Shown here piece by piece: positions 23,109 through 62,480 of a stretch of 64,000 nucleotides of DNA. Source of the DNA: Candidatus Rifleibacterium amylolyticum. Its GTDB lineage: Bacteria; Muiribacteriota; Ozemobacteria; Ozemobacterales; Ozemobacteraceae. The DNA is taken from positions 186,001-250,000 of the forward strand of contig JAACJG010000008.1 in assembly GCA_009917695.1 (NCBI GenBank), given 5' to 3'. How positions within the stretch are numbered: position 1 is the first letter of the stretch; every line of letters begins with the position of its first letter. Under the pieces are notes generated by a model that saw only the letters and a list, made by a program, of their open reading frames with translations, was not told the origin of the DNA and ran no database searches. The position numbers were made by a program, and so were the translations under genes.

Positions 23109-23753
23109 ATGATGGACGAAAAACAGGTAAAAACAATTGTAGCAGAAGTCCTCAAGCACATTGACCTGCACGGCAGAATTAAATCGGGCTCGATTCCCTG
23201 TGGAGTCAGCAACCGCCACCTGCATGTATCGCAGGCCGATCTTGAAACACTTTTTGGCAAAGGTTATGAGCTTAAACAGATGAAACCTCTGTCACAACCA
23301 GGTCAGTATGCCGCAGAAGAAACCGTGCTGCTCGTCGGGCCCAAGGGGTCGATCGAAAAATGCCGCATTCTCGGCCCGGTTCGCCCCGCAACTCAGGTTG
23401 AAGTCTCTACCACCGACTGCTTTAAACTCGGAGTTAAACCGGTTGTAAGAGATTCCGGCAATACCGCCGGCACTCCCGGCCTCGTTCTGGTTGGCCCCGC
23501 CGGCGCAGTAACCATGAAGGAAGGCGTTATCGTCGCTGCCCGCCACATGCACATCAGCGCTGTAGAAGCTGATAAATTCGGTCTTAAAGACATGGACAGG
23601 ATTTCTATCAAGTCTTCCGGTGTCAAATCGGTCATTTTCAACAACGTTCTTGTCCGCGTCAGCGACAAGTTCGCTCTTGATTTCCATCTCGATACGGATG
23701 AAGCCAACGCCGCCGGCATCAAGAACGGCGACATGGTCGAAATAGTAGCATAA
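23109..23753 (+). CDS. pduL: PduL-type phosphotransacylase (BMC-associated)
   Basis: 214 aa. Converts acyl-CoA and phosphate to acyl phosphate and CoA, recycling CoA inside the compartment. Zinc-binding motifs typical of PduL are present in both barrel halves: SNRHLHVS (near residue 38) and ARHMHIS (near 145). Residues 2-18 (MDEKQVKTIVAEVLKHI) form an amphipathic helix ahead of a linker, the usual encapsulation peptide for shell targeting; the aldehyde dehydrogenase carries a very similar one. Starts 6 bases after the preceding stop; ATG 23109 or 23112 are both possible. Confidence 0.93.
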   Translation: MMDEKQVKTIVAEVLKHIDLHGRIKSGSIPCGVSNRHLHVSQADLETLFGKGYELKQMKPLSQPGQYAAEETVLLVGPKGSIEKCRILGPVRPATQVEVSTTDCFKLGVKPVVRDSGNTAGTPGLVLVGPAGAVTMKEGVIVAARHMHISAVEADKFGLKDMDRISIKSSGVKSVIFNNVLVRVSDKFALDFHLDTDEANAAGIKNGDMVEIVA

Positions 23754-23789
23754 TCACTTTATTCTCAAGAAAATTTTCAGGAGGTCGTC

Positions 23790-24083
23790 ATGCAGGAAGC
23801 CCTGGGTATGATTGAAACACGTGGATTAACATCTCTCATCGAAGCCAGCGATGCTATGGTAAAAGCCGCCAACGTTAAACTGGTCGGCTGGGAAAAAATC
23901 GGTTCTGGTTATTGCACCGCTTTTGTAAGAGGCGATGTAGCTGCTGTAAAAGCTGCCACCGACGCCGGCGCCGCTGCTGCCAAGAAGCTTGGTGAGCTGA
24001 TTGCCGTTCACGTAATTCCTCGCCCCCATTCTAACCTTGACGAAATTTACCCGATCCGCGAAGTAACTGGCTCCAAAAAGTAA
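23790..24083 (+). CDS. BMC-H shell protein (PduA/EutM type)
   Basis: 97 aa, a single BMC domain that forms hexamers tiling the shell facets. Typical sequence: [37 protein letters not shown] with lysine-rich edges and VIPRPHSNL near the end. AGGAGG five bases before ATG is the strongest ribosome site of the operon, fitting the high copy number of BMC-H. A stem-loop follows the stop codon. Confidence 0.95.
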
Positions 24084-24092
24084 GCATCTATA

Positions 24093-24126
24093 CTGCCGCT
24101 CGATTCACGGATGAAGGCAGCGGCAG
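24093..24126 (+). promoter_or_regulatory. Intercistronic stem-loop between BMC-H and BMC-P genes
   Basis: CTGCCGCT (24093-24100) pairs exactly with AGCGGCAG (24119-24126). No T-run follows, so it is not a complete terminator; it may protect the BMC-H message or reduce read-through. Confidence 0.5.
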
Positions 24127-24141
24127 GAACAGGATTTCACC

Positions 24142-24423
24142 ATGATACTTGGCCGCGTATGTGGTACAGTTGTCTGTACCCGCAAAGATGAAAGCCTTGT
24201 CGGTCTCAAACTGCTTGTAGTCGAGGAATTGACTCTCGCCGGTGCGAAGCCGACCGGAAATCACGTCGTTGCCGCTGACGCGGTTGGAGCCGGCGCCTCA
24301 GAGAAAGTTCTGGTCGTTGCCGGCAGCTCGGCACGTCTGACCGAGCGCACGCTCAAAAAACCGGTTGATGCCGCAGTATGTGCGATAGTCGATCAGGTGG
24401 TCTTCGATTCAGAACGTTCCTGA
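24142..24423 (+). CDS. BMC-P shell vertex protein (EutN/CcmL family)
   Basis: 93 aa. Pentamers of this family cap the vertices of the icosahedral shell. The sequence MILGRVCGTVVCTRKDESLVG, then LKLLVV and GAGASEKVLVVAGSSAR, matches the family closely, including the VGAGxGExVLxxxGSSAR-like core. Only one BMC-P is present, consistent with a minimal shell of one H, one P and one T protein. Confidence 0.93.
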   Translation: MILGRVCGTVVCTRKDESLVGLKLLVVEELTLAGAKPTGNHVVAADAVGAGASEKVLVVAGSSARLTERTLKKPVDAAVCAIVDQVVFDSERS

Positions 24424-24427
24424 GGCG

Positions 24428-24451
24428 TCCGGGCCTTTATTGAACCCGGAG
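24428..24451 (+). promoter_or_regulatory. Stem-loop overlapping the aldehyde dehydrogenase ribosome site
   Basis: TCCGGG (24428-24433) pairs with CCCGGA (24445-24450); the right arm shares its last bases with the GGAG Shine-Dalgarno (24448-24451) of the next gene, so folding could limit translation. Confidence 0.45.
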
Positions 24452-24458
24452 TATTAAG

Positions 24459-25865
24459 ATGAGCGTTTCAAGGGAAGATTTGCAACTCATAGTATCGGAA
24501 GTGCTCAAGAAAATCGGTACCGGCACTCTCCCGACACCATCTGTCGCCAGCGGCAGAGGCAGAGGTATTTTTGATTCGGTCGATGATGCGGTAGCTGCTG
24601 CTACCCGCGCCCAGAAACAGCTGGTAGACCTGCCGCTGAAAACCCGTGCAGCAATTATTGCCAATATGCGCAAACGCGCGCTCGAAAAGGTCGAAGAGCT
24701 GGCAAAACTGGCTAATCAGGAAACCGGCTACGGCAGAGTTGATGACAAGATTCAAAAAAACAAGCTCGTCATCGAAAAAACGCCCGGCGTCGAAGACCTC
24801 GTTCCTGAGGCCTGCAGCGGCGATCATGGGCTGACTCTGACCGAACGCGCACCTTATGGCGTCATCGGAGCCATCACTCCGTCTACGAACCCGACGGCAA
24901 CAGTTATAAACAATTCTATCAGCATGGTTTCAGCCGGTAACGCAGTTGTTTTTGCACCGCATCCGGCGGCGGCGAAATGCAGTCAGTTCGCCATGAGCGT
25001 GCTTAATGACGCCATTGTCGAAGCCGGCGGCCCGGAGAATGTTCTGGTAACAGTAGCCAGCGCCAGCATCGAAAACGCCCAGAAAATCATGACTCACCCC
25101 GGAATCAGGCTTCTGGCCGTTACCGGTGGCCCTGCCGTCGTTGAAGCCGCCTCGAAATCGCGCAAAAAGTATGTCGCAGCCGGCCCCGGCAATCCGCCCG
25201 CCGTCGTCGATGAAACTGCCGATCTCAAAAAGGCCGCGCGTGACATAGTTTCTGGCGCAAGTCTCGACAACAACGTGCTCTGCATTGCCGAAAAAGAAAT
25301 TATCGTCGTCGAGTCGGTCGCCGACGAGCTCAAAAAGCACCTGCGCAACAGCGGTGCCTACGAAGCTTCGCCGCGCGAAATAGCTCAGCTCGAAAAAGTC
25401 TGCCTCGATGCCAAGGGAATGCCCAATCGCAAACTGGTTGGACGCAACGCCTCGGTGATCATGCAGGAAATCGGCGTCAATATCCCGCCCGAAACCCGCA
25501 TCGTCCTCTGCGAAACAGCTCCCGATCATCCGTTTGTCGTCGAAGAACTCCTGATGCCGGTCATTCCACTGGTCAGAGTGCGCGACGTTCACGCCGCCAT
25601 CGACCTTGCGGTCAAGGTCGAACATGGCAACCGCCACACCGCGGTAATGCACAGCAAAAACATCGACAATCTGCACAAGATGGCACGCATGTGTGACTGC
25701 AGTATCTTCGTCAAGAACGGACCCAGCTACGCCGGACTCGGTCTCGGTGGTGAAGGCACCACAACCATGACCATCGCCTCGCCGACCGGTGAAGGCATCA
25801 CAACCGCTCGGTCATTCACCCGTCTGCGGCGCTGCGTGATCGTCGATTCTTTCAGAATCGTCTAA
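24459..25865 (+). CDS. CoA-acylating aldehyde dehydrogenase (PduP/EutE type)
   Basis: 468 aa. Oxidises an aldehyde to acyl-CoA with NAD. The catalytic cysteine is C275 in DNNVLCIAEKE, and TPSTNPTATVINN plus VTGGPAVVEAA form the cofactor site, as in PduP/EutE. The N-terminal helix SREDLQLIVSEVLKKIG followed by a Gly/Pro/Ser linker is an encapsulation peptide nearly matching that of PduL. Substrate cannot be read directly; acetaldehyde is the simplest guess from the sugar-phosphate genes around it. The GGAG ribosome site overlaps a stem-loop. Confidence 0.94.
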   Translation: MSVSREDLQLIVSEVLKKIGTGTLPTPSVASGRGRGIFDSVDDAVAAATRAQKQLVDLPLKTRAAIIANMRKRALEKVEELAKLANQETGYGRVDDKIQKNKLVIEKTPGVEDLVPEACSGDHGLTLTERAPYGVIGAITPSTNPTATVINNSISMVSAGNAVVFAPHPAAAKCSQFAMSVLNDAIVEAGGPENVLVTVASASIENAQKIMTHPGIRLLAVTGGPAVVEAASKSRKKYVAAGPGNPPAVVDETADLKKAARDIVSGASLDNNVLCIAEKEIIVVESVADELKKHLRNSGAYEASPREIAQLEKVCLDAKGMPNRKLVGRNASVIMQEIGVNIPPETRIVLCETAPDHPFVVEELLMPVIPLVRVRDVHAAIDLAVKVEHGNRHTAVMHSKNIDNLHKMARMCDCSIFVKNGPSYAGLGLGGEGTTTMTIASPTGEGITTARSFTRLRRCVIVDSFRIV

Positions 25866-25880
25866 TTAAACAGGTTATAA

Positions 25881-27194
25881 ATGGTAAACGTTGATTTCTC
25901 TCAACTGGGCCTGACCGGCTGCGGTGGCGCCGGATTTCCGACCCACGTCAAGCTGGCAGCCCGCAACGTCGATGCGGTTATCGTCAATGCCGCCGAATGT
26001 GAGCCTCTGCTTCATAAAGATAAAGAGATCATGCGCCATTGCAGCGAAGATTTCTTCAAAGGTCTGATCAGAGTTCTCGATATAACCGGTGCCAAAACCG
26101 GATATATCGGCATGAAAAAGAAATATGCCGACCTGCTTAACTGGCTCTCGAAAAATCTGCCGGATCCGCGCATAAAGATGCTGCCCCTTGGCGACTTTTA
26201 TCCGGCCGGTGATGAATACGAACTGGTCTACGAAGCCACCGGAAGACTGATTCCGCATGGCGGCATTCCGCTCAATATCGGCTGCGTCGTTATGAACGTA
26301 GAAACTCTGCTCAATATAGGACGCAACCAGCCTTTCATCAGCAAGTTTCTCACTCTTGCCGGGATGGTCCCTCACCCCTGCACCATCGAAGTGCCCATCG
26401 GCATTACTGTGCGCGAGGCTCTCGAACTGAGCGGACTCAAGAAACTTGACGGACTGAAAGTAATTGACGGCGGCCCGATGATGGGCAAACTCATCGATAA
26501 CCCGGATACTGCTATTGTCAGCAAAACCTGTGGCGGCCTGATCGCATTGCCGGCCGATCACGTTCTGATCAGAAAAATGTCGAACAGCGACAAAAAAAAT
26601 TCGCAGATAGCACGCTCCGCCTGTGATCAATGCACCGACTGCTCAGAACTCTGCCCGCGCGCATTGCTCGGTTACCCGATACGGCCGCACAAGGCCATGC
26701 GCACAGCTCAGTTTGCACCTTACGCTGAAAGCAACTATGCCGTAGACTCGGTGTTCTGTAGCGAATGCGGCCTGTGCTCACTGTTTTCATGCCCCGAAGA
26801 CCTGCCTCCCCGCGAGATGTGCATGCTTTCAAAAAAGTATCATCTCAGCAAAGGCGTTAAACTTGCAGAATTTCCGGGCGAACCGCAGATTCACCCGATG
26901 CGTTCAGTTCGCCGCGTCAGCATCGAACGCCTGATCAAAAAACTCGCCCTGCTCGACTACGATCACAAAGCACCGCTGCAGCAGATAAACAAAAATTTCG
27001 ACAAGGTAACCCTGCCGCTCAAAATGCACATCGGCGCCCCTTCTGTGCCGGTTGTCAAAGCTGGCGACAGGGTCGGTGCCGGGCAACTCATCGCAGTGAT
27101 ACCCGAGGGCAAACTCGGAGCCGCACTGCATGCGTCGATAAGCGGCAAAATAGCTTCGGTCAGCGACCAGGCAATTGTCATAGTCAGAGAATGA
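25881..27194 (+). CDS. PduS-like/RnfC-like iron-sulfur flavoprotein
   Basis: 437 aa. The N-terminal half is an RnfC/NuoF-like FMN and NADH-binding module (GLTGCGGAGFPTHVKLA, NAAECEPLLHKDKE, PLGDFYPAGDEYELVYEATG) with an SLBB segment. It is followed by two 4Fe-4S motifs, CDQCTDCSELCP and CSECGLCSLFSCP, and a C-terminal lipoyl-like strand domain (VKAGDRVGAGQLIAVIPEGKLGA). In the Pdu system PduS is an NADH-dependent cobalamin reductase; B12 enzymes are absent here, so its likely job is to oxidise NADH made by the aldehyde dehydrogenase and pass electrons to the PduT-like pore. Confidence 0.92.
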   Translation: MVNVDFSQLGLTGCGGAGFPTHVKLAARNVDAVIVNAAECEPLLHKDKEIMRHCSEDFFKGLIRVLDITGAKTGYIGMKKKYADLLNWLSKNLPDPRIKMLPLGDFYPAGDEYELVYEATGRLIPHGGIPLNIGCVVMNVETLLNIGRNQPFISKFLTLAGMVPHPCTIEVPIGITVREALELSGLKKLDGLKVIDGGPMMGKLIDNPDTAIVSKTCGGLIALPADHVLIRKMSNSDKKNSQIARSACDQCTDCSELCPRALLGYPIRPHKAMRTAQFAPYAESNYAVDSVFCSECGLCSLFSCPEDLPPREMCMLSKKYHLSKGVKLAEFPGEPQIHPMRSVRRVSIERLIKKLALLDYDHKAPLQQINKNFDKVTLPLKMHIGAPSVPVVKAGDRVGAGQLIAVIPEGKLGAALHASISGKIASVSDQAIVIVRE

Positions 27195-27204
27195 GGTAAG
27201 ATAA

Positions 27205-27762
27205 ATGAATATCCACGGAAATGCCATCGGCCTGATTGAACTTTCCAGCATTTCTACCGGCTATCTGGTGACAGATGCCATGCTCAAGACCGCTTCGGTC
27301 GAGCTGGTTCTCTCGCGCACCGTCTGCCCGGGCAAATTCATCTGCCTCGTCTGGGGCGATGTCGCAGCCGTCGAAGCCAGCGTTGCCGCCGGTATTCAAC
27401 TCGGTCAGGGCTATCTTGTCAACGACCTCGTCATTCCGAACCTGCACCCGCAGATTTACCCAGCTATAACCGCTACCAATCAGATTACCGAGACCGGTGC
27501 GCTCGGAGTCATCGAAACTTTCGACATAGTTTCAACAATTCTTGCCGCCGATGCTTCGGTCAAAGCCGCTGACGTAAACCTGTGCGAACTGCGCATTGCC
27601 ATGGCCATCGGTGGCAAAGCCTTTTACACCATGACCGGTGACGTTGCCGCAGTCGAAGCTGCAGTAAAAGCCGGCCTCGAATCACTCGAAGGCAAAGGTC
27701 TCGTCGTTCATCATGTCGTCATTCCAAGGCCGCGCCCCGAGCTGTTCAGGGAGTTCATCTGA
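27205..27762 (+). CDS. Tandem BMC-domain shell trimer (PduT-like)
   Basis: 185 aa, two BMC domains in tandem. C41 in LSRTVCPGKF corresponds to the cysteine of PduT (SKTICPGKF) that holds a 4Fe-4S cluster at the trimer pore, so this shell protein probably conducts electrons or carries the cluster. The second domain starts near GALGVIETFDIVSTILAAD and ends with VVIPRPRPELF. Placement directly after the PduS-like gene supports a functional pair. GAGG lies upstream of the ATG; its stop overlaps the rpiB start. Confidence 0.93.
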   Translation: MNIHGNAIGLIELSSISTGYLVTDAMLKTASVELVLSRTVCPGKFICLVWGDVAAVEASVAAGIQLGQGYLVNDLVIPNLHPQIYPAITATNQITETGALGVIETFDIVSTILAADASVKAADVNLCELRIAMAIGGKAFYTMTGDVAAVEAAVKAGLESLEGKGLVVHHVVIPRPRPELFREFI

Positions 27763-28211
27763 TGCCAAGAATTTATCTCGGCGCCGATCACGGCGGTTTT
27801 CCACACAAAGAAGAGCTAAAAAAATATCTGATCGAAAAGGGACACGTTGTCGAAGATATGGGTGCCTATTCGACGTCTCCAGTCGACTACCCTGATATCG
27901 CCTATCTGGTAGCTGCCTCGGTCGCCAGAAATCCGCTGAGCCTTGGCATAGTCATCGATGGCGCCGGAATCGGCTCATGCATGGCTGCCAACAAGGTTCC
28001 CGGCATTCGTGCCGCCTGCTGCAACGATCTTTATACTGCCCGCAACAGCCGCGAACACAATCACGCCAATATTTTGACCCTTGGCAGTATGGTAATCGGC
28101 ACCGGCTACATGAAGCAGATCGTCGATCTCTGGCTGGCAACCGCTCCGGCCCCCGGTCGCCACGCCGACCGCGTTGCCAAGATCATGCAACTGGAACGCC
28201 TGACCGGCTGA
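27762..28211 (+). CDS. rpiB: Ribose-5-phosphate isomerase B
   Basis: 149 aa, LacA/B-RpiB family. Interconverts ribose 5-phosphate and ribulose 5-phosphate. Motifs: YLGADHGGF at the N-terminus, DGAGIGSCMAANKVPGIRAA with the catalytic Cys loop, and the signature NSREHNHANILTLGSMVIG. Its start overlaps the shell-protein stop by one base, so it is firmly part of the BMC operon. RpiB plus an acylating aldehyde dehydrogenase is the hallmark gene set of sugar-phosphate-utilising compartments. No targeting peptide is visible, so it may act outside the shell. Confidence 0.93.
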   Translation: MPRIYLGADHGGFPHKEELKKYLIEKGHVVEDMGAYSTSPVDYPDIAYLVAASVARNPLSLGIVIDGAGIGSCMAANKVPGIRAACCNDLYTARNSREHNHANILTLGSMVIGTGYMKQIVDLWLATAPAPGRHADRVAKIMQLERLTG

Positions 28212-29652: not shown

Positions 29653-31185
29653 CTAGGGTCTATCAGCAACTACGCTGATAGTATAAAGAGCAGGAGCAGA
29701 AGTTTCGGGCACCGGAATTGCGTCTTCATCAGCAGTATTGATGACGTAGGAGGCAGAAGCACCCGGAACAGCAGGCGGCTCGACGATTATCTGATGTGCA
29801 AAGCCATAACCTGTTGCAGCATGGAATTTGATCAAAGCTTCTCCTGTTACCCCGGCCTGAATCGAAGGCGTTGTCTGAGTGTTATCCCAGAGCGTAACCG
29901 GATTGTTATTTTTGACTTCAAAGCTCTGATAAGGCAAAGAGATGTTGGCAGTCACTGTGTCGCCATTTGCCAGATCGGGCCCCGAAACATGAAATACGAC
30001 ATCGCGATAAATGATGTTGTCATACATGCCAGCCTTGCTGTCTGCGGGAATATTGGGGTTATAATCAAATTCAGTCTGACCATTATCGCTGGTAAAGTCG
30101 ACGTCAATGCGATAATTTCCTTCAGTGCCACCGAATGCGGTCAGAGAAGAACCTATTCTCAGCACTTCGTCTTCGTAGCCCAGCAGCTGAATTCTCAGAT
30201 TAACCGGCAGATCAATAGCAGCGACTTCAACAACGTTAGGAAGCGCATCATTGGCAACGGCAAGATTGCTGGTCGATAATACGTGGGCAGGCGCTGCCGT
30301 TGTTTCGACAATAATATTAGCCTGAGCAGCATTGAGATAACTGGGGGCATTAACCCATCTCAGCTGAAGCTTATATTTGACTGGCACGAGAACAACCTTG
30401 GCATAATATTCACTGCCGCTTAAAGTTGCATTTTCGGTTAAAATCGGCTCATATAGAGGCTGGTCGGCGGCATGTCTGATGGCTATGTCGAGTTCTTCGG
30501 CAGATTCTCGTTCGACACCAAGACGCAAAGCTGCAGCGGTAAGCTTAGCATTACCAAGAGCGTCAAGTAGCGGCTCACCATTGATAGTTACGTAAAATTC
30601 ATCAAGATCCTGAACTTTTACGACAGAACCGGCATCACTGCTGTAAGTGCTATAGAGATCGAGCTTGATAAGCGCAGTCGGCGGCAAGCTTTTCATTGTC
30701 TCAATAAGCGGCAGCGAGCCAAGATTCAGCACATCACCACTCTTGACGTATATGGCTTCAAGCTTGGCCGATTCAGCCGTATTGCCTTCTTCGGTTTCGC
30801 TGGTGGTAGTAGTGCTCGGGTAAGTCGCCTTGTTCTGACCCTTCTGATATTCGATCAGCACGTTGTCAGGAATGACGTTCTCGAACACGAAGTAGCCATT
30901 GGCATCGGTTGTAGTACTCAGAAAGTTCTTACCCTGTTTGAGTTCAGAAGTTCCCTGAGCTTCTTTAGACATGACTCTGACTGTTGCGCCAGAAATGCCT
31001 ACGGTGTCATTGTCGGCTCTGACGACACGCCCGGTAATCATTGCCGGTTTGACGCCAAGGGCGCCTTTTTCGCAACCCATGCTCAGCATAACGACCAGTC
31101 CGGCTATCGCCAGGAACCAGCCTCCCCAGAATCTCAGCTGCATATTACTAAACCTCCCGAACGCTTGAGAAGAATTGTTATTCAT
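29653..31185 (-). CDS. Lipoprotein of the CEKGxLGxK paralog family, 510 aa
   Basis: 510 aa. A hydrophobic segment (WFLAIAGLVVMLSMG) ends in the lipobox SMGC, and the mature protein begins CEKGALGVKPAMITG. A carboxypeptidase-regulatory-like beta domain follows (ITGRVVRADNDTVGISGATV...TTTDANGYFVFENVI). The rest is beta-rich with no known domain. The same opening occurs in the two neighbouring lipoproteins, so the three are paralogs. Starts 1 base after the stop of the upstream paralog, with AGGTGA as ribosome site. Likely a surface or periplasmic structural protein. Confidence 0.85.
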   Translation of the reverse strand: MNNNSSQAFGRFSNMQLRFWGGWFLAIAGLVVMLSMGCEKGALGVKPAMITGRVVRADNDTVGISGATVRVMSKEAQGTSELKQGKNFLSTTTDANGYFVFENVIPDNVLIEYQKGQNKATYPSTTTTSETEEGNTAESAKLEAIYVKSGDVLNLGSLPLIETMKSLPPTALIKLDLYSTYSSDAGSVVKVQDLDEFYVTINGEPLLDALGNAKLTAAALRLGVERESAEELDIAIRHAADQPLYEPILTENATLSGSEYYAKVVLVPVKYKLQLRWVNAPSYLNAAQANIIVETTAAPAHVLSTSNLAVANDALPNVVEVAAIDLPVNLRIQLLGYEDEVLRIGSSLTAFGGTEGNYRIDVDFTSDNGQTEFDYNPNIPADSKAGMYDNIIYRDVVFHVSGPDLANGDTVTANISLPYQSFEVKNNNPVTLWDNTQTTPSIQAGVTGEALIKFHAATGYGFAHQIIVEPPAVPGASASYVINTADEDAIPVPETSAPALYTISVVADRP

Positions 31186-31186
31186 A

Positions 31187-32434
31187 TCAGTTCACCTGTA
31201 TTGTTACGATCTGAGCTTCTGCCCCGTCGTCATCCACACGAATGGTATCGTCGTTAGACTTGCCGTCGCCAACGATATAGCCAACGAAGGTCAAATCATA
31301 TCCGGTCGGAACCTGATTGGTACCAAGATCGATTACGCGAGGTGTGCCGATTGTCCAGCCAGGCGGGTTGGTAACAATGGTCTGAGCCCATCTGGTTCCA
31401 GTTTCCTGACAGTAAGCACCGACAAAGTCATTAGTTCTGATGTTCTCGCCAGTAATGATGACACGAACATCACGCATGATCGGCGAAAAGTTGTTTTTGA
31501 GAGAAAAAGTCTGGTAGATGGTCCCCTGAAAGTCACCAGAGGGATAGACCACTATTGGCCCATTCATGCGATAGCCTTTGACTTCAGCCTCGATCGAGAC
31601 CGAGACCCCTCTCGGGATGCCCGAAATAGTGAAAGACTGTTCGTTGATGGTTGCCGTAGCGGTAGCAACTGCGCGATTACCGGCATAGGCAAAGATATTC
31701 GCGGTCGGATTCGCCTGGAAGACCCAGCCGGGCACATCCTGCCAGCGCCCTACGATAGAGTAGGTTTCCGGCTGCAGCATGATGGTGCCAAGATCGCGAT
31801 CAGAAAGAGCTCCACCTTCGAAGAGAACAGAAGCAGTCTCATAACCGCTGACAGACACAATCATTCTAAAATCATCAGTACGAGCGGGAATCCTGAAGCC
31901 GGTGGTCAGTTCTGTCGGCAGACGATTATTGAAAGTTTGATTTGCAAAGACAAACTGTGCATTACCATAGGTGATCAGAGTGCCATTGACCGCATCTTTA
32001 AGAGTACCGGTAATGGTTACATACTGGTTCTCATATGTCTGTTCCATTCTTACCGATGGAACATGACTTGTTTCATTGTTGACAACTACGACATTTACTG
32101 CTGCCGAAGCCGTATCACCCAACGGCACATAGCCAACTTTGTCAAAGCTGAGGCTCCATTCGTCTGCCCGCAAACTGCCTAAATAGTAGTTTCCGTTGCT
32201 GTCGCTGGTGGTGAACTTGGTAGCGCGGTCTTCATCACCCTCTTCGCCAGTCGTAGCAATTACACTTACGCCGGCAATTCCGACAAGGGTGCGACTGTCA
32301 AGCACACTGCCCGAAATACCACCACCTTTGAGCCCGAGAGTGCCTTTTTCGCACCCGACCAGGCTTACAATCAGCACGATGAATAGTGCTGCCAGGATCC
32401 CGAACGGCTTCGGGTTCCGCCTTTCTCTAATCAT
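31187..32434 (-). CDS. Lipoprotein of the CEKGxLGxK paralog family, 415 aa
   Basis: 415 aa. Lipobox LVGC after ILAALFIVLIVSLV; the mature start CEKGTLGLKGGGISGSV and the regulatory-like domain (VLDSRTLVGIAGVSVIATTG...SDSNGNYYLGSLRADEWSLSFDKVGYV) match its paralogs. The C-terminal two thirds are beta-rich (VTITGTLKDAVNG, FTISGIPRGVSVSIEAEVKGY). GGAGGC lies six bases before ATG. It is the first gene of a two-gene minus-strand unit. Function unknown. Confidence 0.85.
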   Translation of the reverse strand: MIRERRNPKPFGILAALFIVLIVSLVGCEKGTLGLKGGGISGSVLDSRTLVGIAGVSVIATTGEEGDEDRATKFTTSDSNGNYYLGSLRADEWSLSFDKVGYVPLGDTASAAVNVVVVNNETSHVPSVRMEQTYENQYVTITGTLKDAVNGTLITYGNAQFVFANQTFNNRLPTELTTGFRIPARTDDFRMIVSVSGYETASVLFEGGALSDRDLGTIMLQPETYSIVGRWQDVPGWVFQANPTANIFAYAGNRAVATATATINEQSFTISGIPRGVSVSIEAEVKGYRMNGPIVVYPSGDFQGTIYQTFSLKNNFSPIMRDVRVIITGENIRTNDFVGAYCQETGTRWAQTIVTNPPGWTIGTPRVIDLGTNQVPTGYDLTFVGYIVGDGKSNDDTIRVDDDGAEAQIVTIQVN

Positions 32435-33361
32435 GTTAACGCCTCCAGCAGGAATCTTAAAAGAGTCGGCTTCACTACTTAATCGGCTAAGGCTTACGAA
32501 AAGTTAACCAAAAAAAACTTTCATGCGTTTAACAGGAAGCAAGCAGAAAACAATCCGCCGATTGCTCAGATTTCACAGATTAAGCGAACAAGGCTGTTTA
32601 CAGAACCCGGGATCTAGCCATAATCCTCAGTCACATTTGAGTTACAGAGTCGGTTTTTTATACAAAAGCGCGTTGATTTTTGTTAAGCCAGAAGCTTCGG
32701 CCATCAGACGGGATGCTTTTTCTCCAGCGATTCGCTTCGCTCACAAGCTTACGAAAAAGCAAACCCGTCTTCAGGCCTCGCGACAAGGTTCAATGCTCGT
32801 TTATATAAGAATTCACGCCTTGGTAAAAAAATCATACAAGGGCGCAGGCGTGCTTTCTTCGCCAGGATGGCGATTATGACCGGCGCGACAGGAGGTCAAG
32901 CGCCGGGCCTCATTAGCGAAATTTCGAGCCAGGCAACTTTGACACAGAGCCATAGCTATTATAGAGACTCTTGACTGGCGAGAGTGGAGCGAATGAGATC
33001 ACGCCGAGAGCCCGATATAAGGGGAATAACTCAGATTGAATTCTTGAACTCTTATGTGACAGAGGAATAGTTCTTTGTCAACATTGAATCTGGGTGTTAT
33101 CGTCATTGCGAGGAGGGCGTCAGCCCGACGAAGCAATCTCATGGTCAAAGAGATTGCTCTCTCAATCTGCGCACATCTGTGCAATCTGCGGATGTTCTAA
33201 TTTCCCTTCTCTTCTTTGCGTCTCCGTGCCTCAGTGCAAACTTTCTTCTTTAATCTTCCGGCATTCGCAAAAAAATAAAATATGCAAAAACTCTTCAATT
33301 TGTTAACGAGACAGCCGATAAGGTTTCAGAGATATTTTCGAGATTTTTCATGGAGGCAACC
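32435..33361. other. Repeat-filled intergenic region between divergent lipoprotein genes
   Basis: No credible gene is seen. An open frame at 32523-32879 has no ribosome site or recognisable product. The stretch holds a hairpin CCGGCGC/GCGCCGG (32880-32886 and 32900-32906), a small GCC-AGGAT-GGC hairpin before it, the CATTGCGAG-type repeat at 33098-33157 and a TCTTTGCGTCTCCGTGCCTC tract near 33215 that resembles one near 62580. It must also hold the promoters of both flanking lipoprotein genes, which I could not place. Confidence 0.6.
33098..33157. repeat. Dispersed CATTGCGAG...GAAGCAATCTC repeat
   Basis: CGTCATTGCGAGGAGGGCG and CGACGAAGCAATCTC, ending in an inverted pair GCAATCTC/GAGATTGC (33133-33140, 33150-33157). 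Related copies occur at 62435-62480 and 63818-63890. Confidence 0.6.
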
Positions 33362-34705
33362 ATGGTAAGACAACAAACGACTGCAAAAGGACGTTGGCTG
33401 CTGCTGATAGTTCTTTCGCTGGCCAGTATCGTTTTTACTGGCTGCGAGAAGGGTTCACTCGGCATCAAGAGTGGCAATATCACAGGATTTGTCATTAATG
33501 CCAGCACTAATCAGCCCATACCAGAAGTTCTGGTGAGAGGCACCAGCGACACGCATGAAAATGCCAGCACCTATACGGGTGGCGACGGCAGTTTCATCAT
33601 GACCGACCTGACTAAGGGAGCCTGGAGCCTCAACGTCGAGAAATATGGCTACATACTGGTTCATCCTGATGCAACCGGCAGCGACACCGCCAATGTAGTT
33701 GCAGCAACTGTAAATGTTGCCAACGGCGAAACGGTCACCGCCCAGGTTATCAAGATGAATAAAACCCAGGAGCTGGTTAAAGGCGTTCTCAGGGGCTATC
33801 CGATCGACTCGATCACCGGCAGGCCGTTGACCAACTTCACTGTAACCCAGACCTACCCTTACAATCAGCGCAAGTCAAAGCTTTTCGAAACCGCTGCTGA
33901 TTTCAGAGATATTGGCTGGAGCGGTCTTGAAGGTGGCGATCACCATTACACCATCACTGCCAATAACTATGATGAATACAACACAGCCAACGCAGCCGGT
34001 GCCGGCGGCGCTGCTCCTTACATTTCAATTGGTGCTTCCGCAGCAAATCTTGGCACAATCAAGGTTGAACCCCTGCGCGTAAGCATTGCCGGAACACTGC
34101 GCAATCTGCCAGGCTACGTTCTTGATCTTCCCGCGGCAGACAGAGATATATTAATCTGGGCCGAAGCAGCCGGAAAAGTTGTCGCGACATTTACCGACAC
34201 CGCTCTGCAAGGCGCCTACAAGGGTTCAGTAGTCTATAAAATGGACGACATACCGGTAACGGCGGGCAGCGTTGCAGTTAAATGCAAAGTCAGAGGCTAC
34301 GACCTGCAGACCATCAATCAGGCTGTCAGCCTGGCCAGCAATATGCCTGGCGGCACCATTGCCGGCATCGACATCGACTTCGCCAACGTCGAACCGATTC
34401 GCCGCGACCTGCGCGTAGTTATCACCAGCACCGAGCCTAAAGATGGTCAGCCGGCTACATTCAAACCCGGGCAGACCGCACGAGTATTCCTGCGACAGGG
34501 CGGCAAAGACATTGTGCCTTACGTCGATGTGGTTGCAGTCAACTATCGCGCCGAAGCCTACTTCTCAAGCGTAATCACAGGGTATGATCTCAACGTTTAC
34601 GCAGTAAACATGAGCGAAGGTTACTATCAGGCGCTCTCGGAGAACTTCAAAGTACAGGAAGACGGCAACTCGGCCTTCACCTACAATGTGCAGCTGAAGA
34701 ACTAG
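33362..34705 (+). CDS. Lipoprotein of the CEKGxLGxK paralog family, 447 aa
   Basis: 447 aa from ATG 33362, chosen because GGAGG lies five bases upstream (the ATG at 33350 lacks one). Lipobox FTGC after LLLIVLSLASIV; the mature protein opens CEKGSLGIKSGNITGFV and continues with a regulatory-like domain (INASTNQPIPEVLVRGTSDT...GGDGSFIMTDLTKGAWSLNVEKYGYI). Later segments such as VSIAGTLRNLPGYVLDLPA parallel SIVGRWQDVPGWVFQANP of the 415-aa paralog, so homology extends beyond the N-terminus. Divergent from the two paralogs across a 0.9-kb gap. Function unknown. Confidence 0.87.
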   Translation: MVRQQTTAKGRWLLLIVLSLASIVFTGCEKGSLGIKSGNITGFVINASTNQPIPEVLVRGTSDTHENASTYTGGDGSFIMTDLTKGAWSLNVEKYGYILVHPDATGSDTANVVAATVNVANGETVTAQVIKMNKTQELVKGVLRGYPIDSITGRPLTNFTVTQTYPYNQRKSKLFETAADFRDIGWSGLEGGDHHYTITANNYDEYNTANAAGAGGAAPYISIGASAANLGTIKVEPLRVSIAGTLRNLPGYVLDLPAADRDILIWAEAAGKVVATFTDTALQGAYKGSVVYKMDDIPVTAGSVAVKCKVRGYDLQTINQAVSLASNMPGGTIAGIDIDFANVEPIRRDLRVVITSTEPKDGQPATFKPGQTARVFLRQGGKDIVPYVDVVAVNYRAEAYFSSVITGYDLNVYAVNMSEGYYQALSENFKVQEDGNSAFTYNVQLKN

Positions 34706-62277: not shown

Positions 62278-62434
62278 TTGCCGCGCCCTTGATCGGGTGT
62301 TTTTCCACACCAAAAAAGAATGAGTAATTTCACTCCCGGGGTATTTATACCCCATATCAGGGAATTTTTTCTTGCTGGTTAATTATTCGACCGATATTGC
62401 CTTAGCCCGGCTGAACTTCTGCAAGTCCCCTGAG

Positions 62435-62480
62435 ATTGCTTCGTCAGACTGAATCCTCCTCGCAATGACCAGACCAATCG
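62435..62480. repeat. Dispersed CATTGCGAG-type repeat, inverted orientation
   Basis: GAGATTGCTTCGTCAGACTG then CCTCCTCGCAATGACC is the reverse orientation of the copy at 33098-33157. Confidence 0.6.

Follow-up and report, generated by a model that had tools for sequence, protein, structure and literature searches.

The 64,000-nucleotide stretch analyzed here (the window) covers positions 186,001 to 250,000 of contig JAACJG010000008.1 of Candidatus Rifleibacterium amylolyticum (assembly GCA_009917695.1; phylum Muiribacteriota, family Ozemobacteraceae). It contains three neighboring genes for predicted lipoproteins, here called A, B, and C (the trio), whose mature forms would begin with nearly the same nine residues, the leader, numbered from the conserved Cys (+1). 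A and B are minus-strand genes in head-to-tail order, with 1 base separating the B stop codon from the A start codon, and C is divergent from them (Table 1). A preliminary description of this DNA had reported three open reading frames (ORFs) with CEKGxLGxK starts, and these indeed exist, reading GCEKGALGVK in A, GCEKGTLGLK in B, and GCEKGSLGIK in C. A hydrophobic signal peptide with a terminal lipobox, [LVI][ASTVI][GAS]C, marks bacterial lipoproteins; the LVGC of B fits this consensus, and the FTGC of C and SMGC of A are looser fits.

Table 1. Features of the A/B/C locus, in window positions. pLDDT, predicted local distance difference test score.
Feature	Position	Strand	Basis
Lipoprotein A, 510 residues, second gene of the B-A pair	29653-31185	-	ORF; hhalign to B and C; AlphaFold pLDDT 71.0
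Leader of A, CEKGALGVK (+1 to +9)	31048-31074	-	Sequence; pLDDT <50 at residues 37-43
First beta-sandwich domain of A, PF13620 match at residues 50-127, below cut-off	30805-31038	-	Pfam
Lipoprotein B, 415 residues, first gene of the B-A pair	31187-32434	-	ORF; PF13620 39.1 bits; match to C
Leader of B, CEKGTLGLK	32327-32353	-	Sequence
First beta-sandwich domain of B, PF13620 match at residues 40-106, above cut-off	32117-32317	-	Pfam
Divergent B-C intergenic region, 927 bases from the likely start of C	32435-33361	.	Contains a repeat-like element from ~33102
Lipoprotein C, 447 residues from the likely start	33362-34705	+	ORF (opens 33350); GGAGG upstream makes ATG 33362 the likelier start; AlphaFold pLDDT 83.7
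Leader of C, CEKGSLGIK	33443-33469	+	Sequence; pLDDT <50 at residues 29-37
First beta-sandwich domain of C, PF13620 match at residues 44-106, 0.2 bits below cut-off	33479-33667	+	Pfam

In BLASTP, B matched C with an E value of 2e-21 and 27% identity over residues 1-328 of B. BLASTP alone connected A to B and C chiefly via the N-terminal region, and a match over most of its length was seen by profile comparison only (hhalign probabilities of 99.9% for B-C, 99.8% for A-B, and 99.6% for A-C). Judged by these alignments, A, B, and C are full-length paralogs. In a tree of 44 proteins (midpoint-rooted, with the root serving for drawing only), A, B, and C each formed a clade (support of 100/100), and the trio together was split from 18 homologs of other families (100/99). 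Since A, B, and C form separate clades, the duplications predate the Ozemobacteraceae genera sampled. The NCBIfam search returned one hit for A, at an E value of 0.17 and far under the cut-off, and none for B and C. The earlier proposal of a paralogous family is supported; the family is lineage-specific, and no NCBIfam model covers it. The family is also, as proposed, apparently undescribed: no paper evidently about it was found in the accessible text of the literature searched.

Among 24 Ozemobacteraceae genomes, 17 carry one copy each of A, B, and C as immediate neighbors (one gene runs off the contig end in G003, G004, G005, G008, and G023). Four others are partial at contig ends, with only C and its leader present in G011 and G019 and only part of C in G013 and G007. 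No trio gene was found in G006, G001, and G016, which are 83, 75, and 70% complete, respectively. When C alone was used as a query, matches were obtained in 27 of 56 genomes and in none of the 17 from outside the phylum. Gene calls around the trio, and around the barrel gene described below, were longest-ORF picks, which misplace genes in the GC-rich genomes G008, G015, and G020; A and B of these three were taken from a separate search instead.

To gauge how specific the leader is, the back-translated pattern TGYGARAARGGNNNNYTNGG was searched in the whole 5,391,313-base genome. It matched three times, always in the trio, while its backward control matched once, which argues that the motif is more than chance. 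As the preliminary description had suggested, a profile search was then made with the first 60 mature residues, taken from 20 trio members, against 39 phylum genomes. The matches listed that cover leader position 1 number 53, all of them trio members, from 19 genomes; every other match listed (to an E value of ~0.002) begins at leader position 4 or later. For comparison across the family, 53 leaders were selected by a pattern demanding Gly at +4 and +7; the profile search, free of this requirement, likewise gave 53 that start at leader position 1. By hand, we excluded from the pattern-selected set the hits of G006, of G024, and of the second contigs of G013 and G015, and the only other rows absent are the C fragments of G013 and G007, both lacking a start.

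The lipobox Cys is present in all 53 members with an intact start, and Gly at +4, +7, and +15 is invariant. Leu occupies +6 in 51 of the 53, a basic residue (Lys or Arg) occupies +9 in 50, and 32 retain CEKGxLGxK exactly. Positions +2 (42 Glu, 7 Asp, 3 Asn, and 1 Gln) and +3 (38 Lys, 9 Asn, 3 His, and 1 each of Ser, Thr, and Gln) vary. When 26 family proteins were aligned, the paralogs shared 64% (A-B), 70% (A-C), and 65% (B-C) identity at +2 to +9. This identity fell to 28, 29, and 49% at +10 to +15 and, over the remainder of domain 1, to 18, 19, and 26% (same order of pairs), and was 16 to 25% in the other domains and 19 to 22% in the signal peptide. With 64 to 70% identity against 16 to 26% in the folded domains, the leader is under real constraint and is conserved far beyond the rest of the protein.

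The regulatory-like beta domain that had been noted after the leader corresponds to CarboxypepD_reg (PF13620). This assignment stands for B (39.1 bits; cut-off, 32.3), while A (24.5) and C (32.1) score below the cut-off. Domains 2 to 4 of the three proteins gave no Pfam match at E values up to 1. A sequence search of the PDB returned five distinct sequences, all matching domain 1: NOMO2, SdrD, a cellulosomal scaffoldin (twice), and a SusC homolog. The AlphaFold model of C [overall pLDDT as in Table 1; predicted template modeling (TM) score of 0.54] consists of a signal helix, a disordered leader, and four successive beta-sandwich blocks, as divided here at residues ~42-138, 144-239, 243-341, and 351-448; strand A of the first block is confident from residue 42. 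A has a similar, weaker predicted layout (predicted TM-score of 0.49). The top solved-structure matches (Foldseek/VIA) were tandem-domain surface proteins, namely, the B. anthracis TIE protein (E value of 1.5e-12, Z of 12.1, and 255 residues at 8.7 Å root mean square deviation) and Gram-positive pilins; single transthyretin-like domains matched domain 1 at 2 to 3 Å. The VIA alignments covered mainly C residues 37-250 and barely included domains 3 and 4. Separately, a stretch 43 to 47% identical to C residues ~242-450, the last two domains, was observed in differently built proteins of G006, G013, and G015 (L057:9586-10620, L063:548-1576, and L064:5455-7281); this domain pair thus occurs outside the trio.

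Many homologs in other families of the phylum keep the pattern G-[VIL]-x-x-G-x-[IV]-x-G (example starts are CEGDAGVGDGRIQG, CSGNAGLKNGAIKG, and CGDAGVENGVITG), whereas CEK was observed in the Ozemobacteraceae trio alone, and homologs from families f4 and f5 retain little of the Gly pattern. Four proteins of family f3 that lack a standard lipobox read GSAG[IV][KR]NGTIxG, and the G036 homolog has ALAGSGVSNGAIQG after an apparently ordinary signal peptide. Two of the f3 proteins carry a Cys right before the block (HIFC-GSAG), so clean cases without Cys are three of five. Since homologs without a standard lipobox keep the Gly pattern, the pattern is not lipidation-dependent in every case. Four f3 homologs were part of the query alignment, and their E values of ~1e-107 arise by construction; independent hits are at ~1e-30 and weaker. 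A subtilase-type protein is encoded less than 1.5 kb from the f3 homologs without a standard lipobox and from one f6 homolog (L058:8328-9635, L059:11112-12398, L060:8619-9827, L061:6812-8122, and L105:7773-10505); PF00082 was shown for L058 and L105, and the other loci are BLAST relatives.

Among 15 genomes of other families, 11 (G024, G025, G026, G027, G029, G030, G031, G033, G034, G035, and G038) have a homologous lipoprotein gene directly upstream of a gene for a UPF0164/PorV-like barrel, which scores over the cut-off for UPF0164 only, PorV being below it. G032 is cut at a contig end, and G028, G036, and G037 do not show the adjacency. The G024 lipoprotein is the weakest of the 11 (32% identity to f4, PF13620 below the cut-off, and a long branch), and for G035 the adjacency was judged from coordinates only. 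Within a few genes downstream of the barrel, the f3 and f7 genomes read carry a PilB-like ATPase gene, accompanied in f3 by a PilT-like one; the PilB-like and PilT-like proteins of G025 both match Pfam T2SSE. The barrel of four Ozemobacteraceae genomes read also has pilB- and pilT-like genes nearby. In the genome studied here, the barrel gene (contig C6, 133923-134870) is found with such genes at L142:8890-9873, just after a Gly-rich lipoprotein gene and a gene for a very large protein.

This large protein, encoded at L142:2-8014, has at least 2670 residues, and its C terminus matches Por_Secre_tail (27.7; cut-off, 27). Matches to this family were seen in 36 of 39 phylum genomes (35 over the cut-off) and in 1 of 14 control genomes, below the cut-off. 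SprA_N had no match anywhere, the control genomes included, and this search therefore says nothing about absence. Given the spread of Por_Secre_tail, a type IX-like export route is worth checking, a point we keep as a side observation. Lgt, LspA, and Omp85 genes are present in this genome. No match to PF03548 (LolA) was found in this 95.6% complete genome with a search that matched 6 of 14 control genomes and that a divergent LolA could escape; lipoprotein transport here may use a divergent carrier. No paper on how Riflebacteria sort lipoproteins was found in the accessible text of the literature searched.

The reading to which we give about an even chance is that A, B, and C are outer-envelope rod lipoproteins and that their shared leader most likely serves as a docking or stand-off segment, not as a lipid-sorting address. 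In this scheme, the three proteins, products of duplications older than the split of the sampled Ozemobacteraceae genera, would each undergo export, lipidation by Lgt at the conserved Cys, and cleavage by LspA. The short, disordered C-x-x-G-x-L-G-x-K leader would then hold a four-domain transthyretin/immunoglobulin-like rod off the membrane, probably the outer membrane. The one-of-each pattern and the divergent B-A/C arrangement suggest that A, B, and C cooperate within a single envelope or surface structure, and the leader may meet a partner common to all three. An outer-membrane barrel is a candidate partner because a UPF0164/PorV-like barrel gene stands beside the homologs in other families. 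We infer the lipidation, outer-membrane site, joint assembly, and docking role from this combination of findings. In a bolder form, which we regard as a long shot, the leader would be a post-Cys signal of a new type: a linear motif for docking, through which a dedicated envelope partner seats three different rods on one machine, inherited from an ancestral motif of the whole phylum that functions whether or not the lipid is present.

Several observations weigh against the docking or stand-off reading. The Ozemobacteraceae trio is not beside the barrel (here, the trio is on contig C8 and the barrel on C6), and the slot before the barrel is taken by an unrelated Gly-rich lipoprotein in G000, G007, and G012 and by another protein in G014. 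The trio genes missing from G006, G001, and G016 mean that the trio may not be universal in the family. Model confidence for A is low. The Foldseek matches are to common folds with low TM-scores (query-normalized values of at most 0.32); since whole-model scores are low, the matches show a common build, not kinship. Finally, joint loss of E-K across paralogs of one genome is what a shared recognizer would predict and leans toward sorting, and the leader may simply cap domain 1, though the models leave it disordered.

In Escherichia coli, residues next to the lipidated Cys govern sorting, and the preliminary description suggested that the residues after the Cys may form a lineage-specific localization tag; such a tag would be an address sending the lipoproteins to one membrane face. 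This suggestion is not supported by our results, and we consider it improbable. The leader is strongly conserved beside the Cys, and position-specific post-Cys signals are known in Bacteroidota, according to the accessible text of PMC5080379. E-K at +2/+3 also tends to go in several paralogs of one genome, as if one recognizer had drifted: E-K is present throughout (all three proteins) in 9 of the 17 trios, wholly absent in 3 (G014, G018, and G022), lost from two proteins in 2 (G021 and G023), and lost from one in 3. However, four of the five genomes with at least two losses come from one genus (g11), and the co-loss may therefore represent one or two events. The leader is found on the trio only, both in the genome pattern search and among the matches listed in the 39 phylum genomes, and a genome-wide sorting signal was rejected as the main reading for this reason; a tag that serves just these three proteins would be compatible with it. 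Applied to 136 kb of this genome, a simple home-made lipobox rule picked out 12 lipoprotein-like starts, and the 9 outside the trio differ after the Cys. The Gly pattern also persists in some relatives that lack a standard lipobox, and it is +2 and +3 that vary while the Gly residues at +4, +7, and +15 are fixed. Because known signals use the residues right after the Cys, which are the variable ones here, docking or stand-off fits better than sorting.

A fair rival to docking, though one we think rather unlikely, is that the leader belongs to the CarboxypepD_reg domain itself, as its opening turn and edge, and is kept for folding. PF13620 matches begin at the I-x-G after the leader, and equivalents of Gly at +7, +11, and +15 and of the hydrophobic residues at +8 and +13 recur in homologs from several other families, including some homologs that lack a standard lipobox. 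Yet residues 29-37 of C, the leader, have pLDDT values below 50, against a confident strand A from residue 42, and the leader is about three times as conserved between paralogs as domain 1. Moreover, among the matches listed for the 60-residue profile, CarboxypepD-type proteins other than the family and its homologs in the phylum align from position 7 at the earliest. That the starts are alike merely through recent duplication or gene conversion, with no special function, appears very improbable: the three paralogs are adjacent and gene-conversion tracts can be short, but the duplications are older than the sampled genera, and within this genome B and C encode the leader block with different codons.

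In most Ozemobacteraceae genomes read, the trio is flanked by a phosphopentomutase gene on one side and, on the other, by a tetratricopeptide repeat (TPR) gene followed by two more; we take the named flanking genes to be deoB, tgt, and queA, from their sequences, while TPR is a family match. A function deduced from these neighbors was rejected, since deoB and tgt/queA are housekeeping genes and are not seen beside the trio in G010, where the trio stays together and no other gene of the window was found across the 20 kb read. The gene run at 23109-28211 resembles a compact bacterial microcompartment locus, presumably encoding PduL-like, shell, aldehyde dehydrogenase, RnfC-like, and RpiB-like proteins; relatives of this run adjoin the trio in several family genomes. 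The B-C intergenic spacing is ~1 kb in G002 and shorter in other relatives read. Between B and C, a repeat-like element CGTCATTGCGAGGAG...CGAAGCAATCT is located at ~33102-33139, and shorter pieces of it recur inverted at 62433-62465, near the window end. Among 152 loci searched, its 15-base core was found in 5, all at this same place.

Overall, the trio family and its conserved leader are real and are undescribed in the libraries and literature searched, while the kind of protein is known. Riflebacteria are among the phyla with the most uncharacterized gene families per genome, as given in the accessible text of PMC10849945, and a family-wide trio with a constrained nine-residue leader offers a concrete handle on sorting versus docking versus fold capping. 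Domain 1 resembles PF13620 and other transthyretin-like/prealbumin-like domains in sequence and fold; in the trio, however, a Cys leader precedes the Pfam-matched part, and domains 2 to 4 are unmatched in Pfam. Bacteroides DUF3823 proteins, which are lipoproteins, align with domain 1 (4eiu, 4yok, and 4fxt; VIA Z of 8.8 to 9.7), but over 85 to 92 residues only, and they are absent from the PDB sequence matches. The lipoprotein export signal of Capnocytophaga (Bacteroidota), C-x-K-(D/E)2-x after the Cys in the accessible text of PMC5080379, is likewise short, conserved, and placed immediately behind the lipidated Cys. The trio leader differs in that its conserved letters are Gly and Leu and that it occurs on three proteins per genome; K-(D/E)2 or Q-A-(D/E)2 near the Cys, as given there, was found in 0 of 53 trio starts. 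Gram-positive rod pilins and the TIE protein (CnaB-type) share the tandem beta-sandwich domains, but the trio would have an N-terminal lipid anchor instead, and the C-terminal ends of A (...VVADRP), B (...TIQVN), and C (...NVQLKN) carry no LPXTG-type motif.

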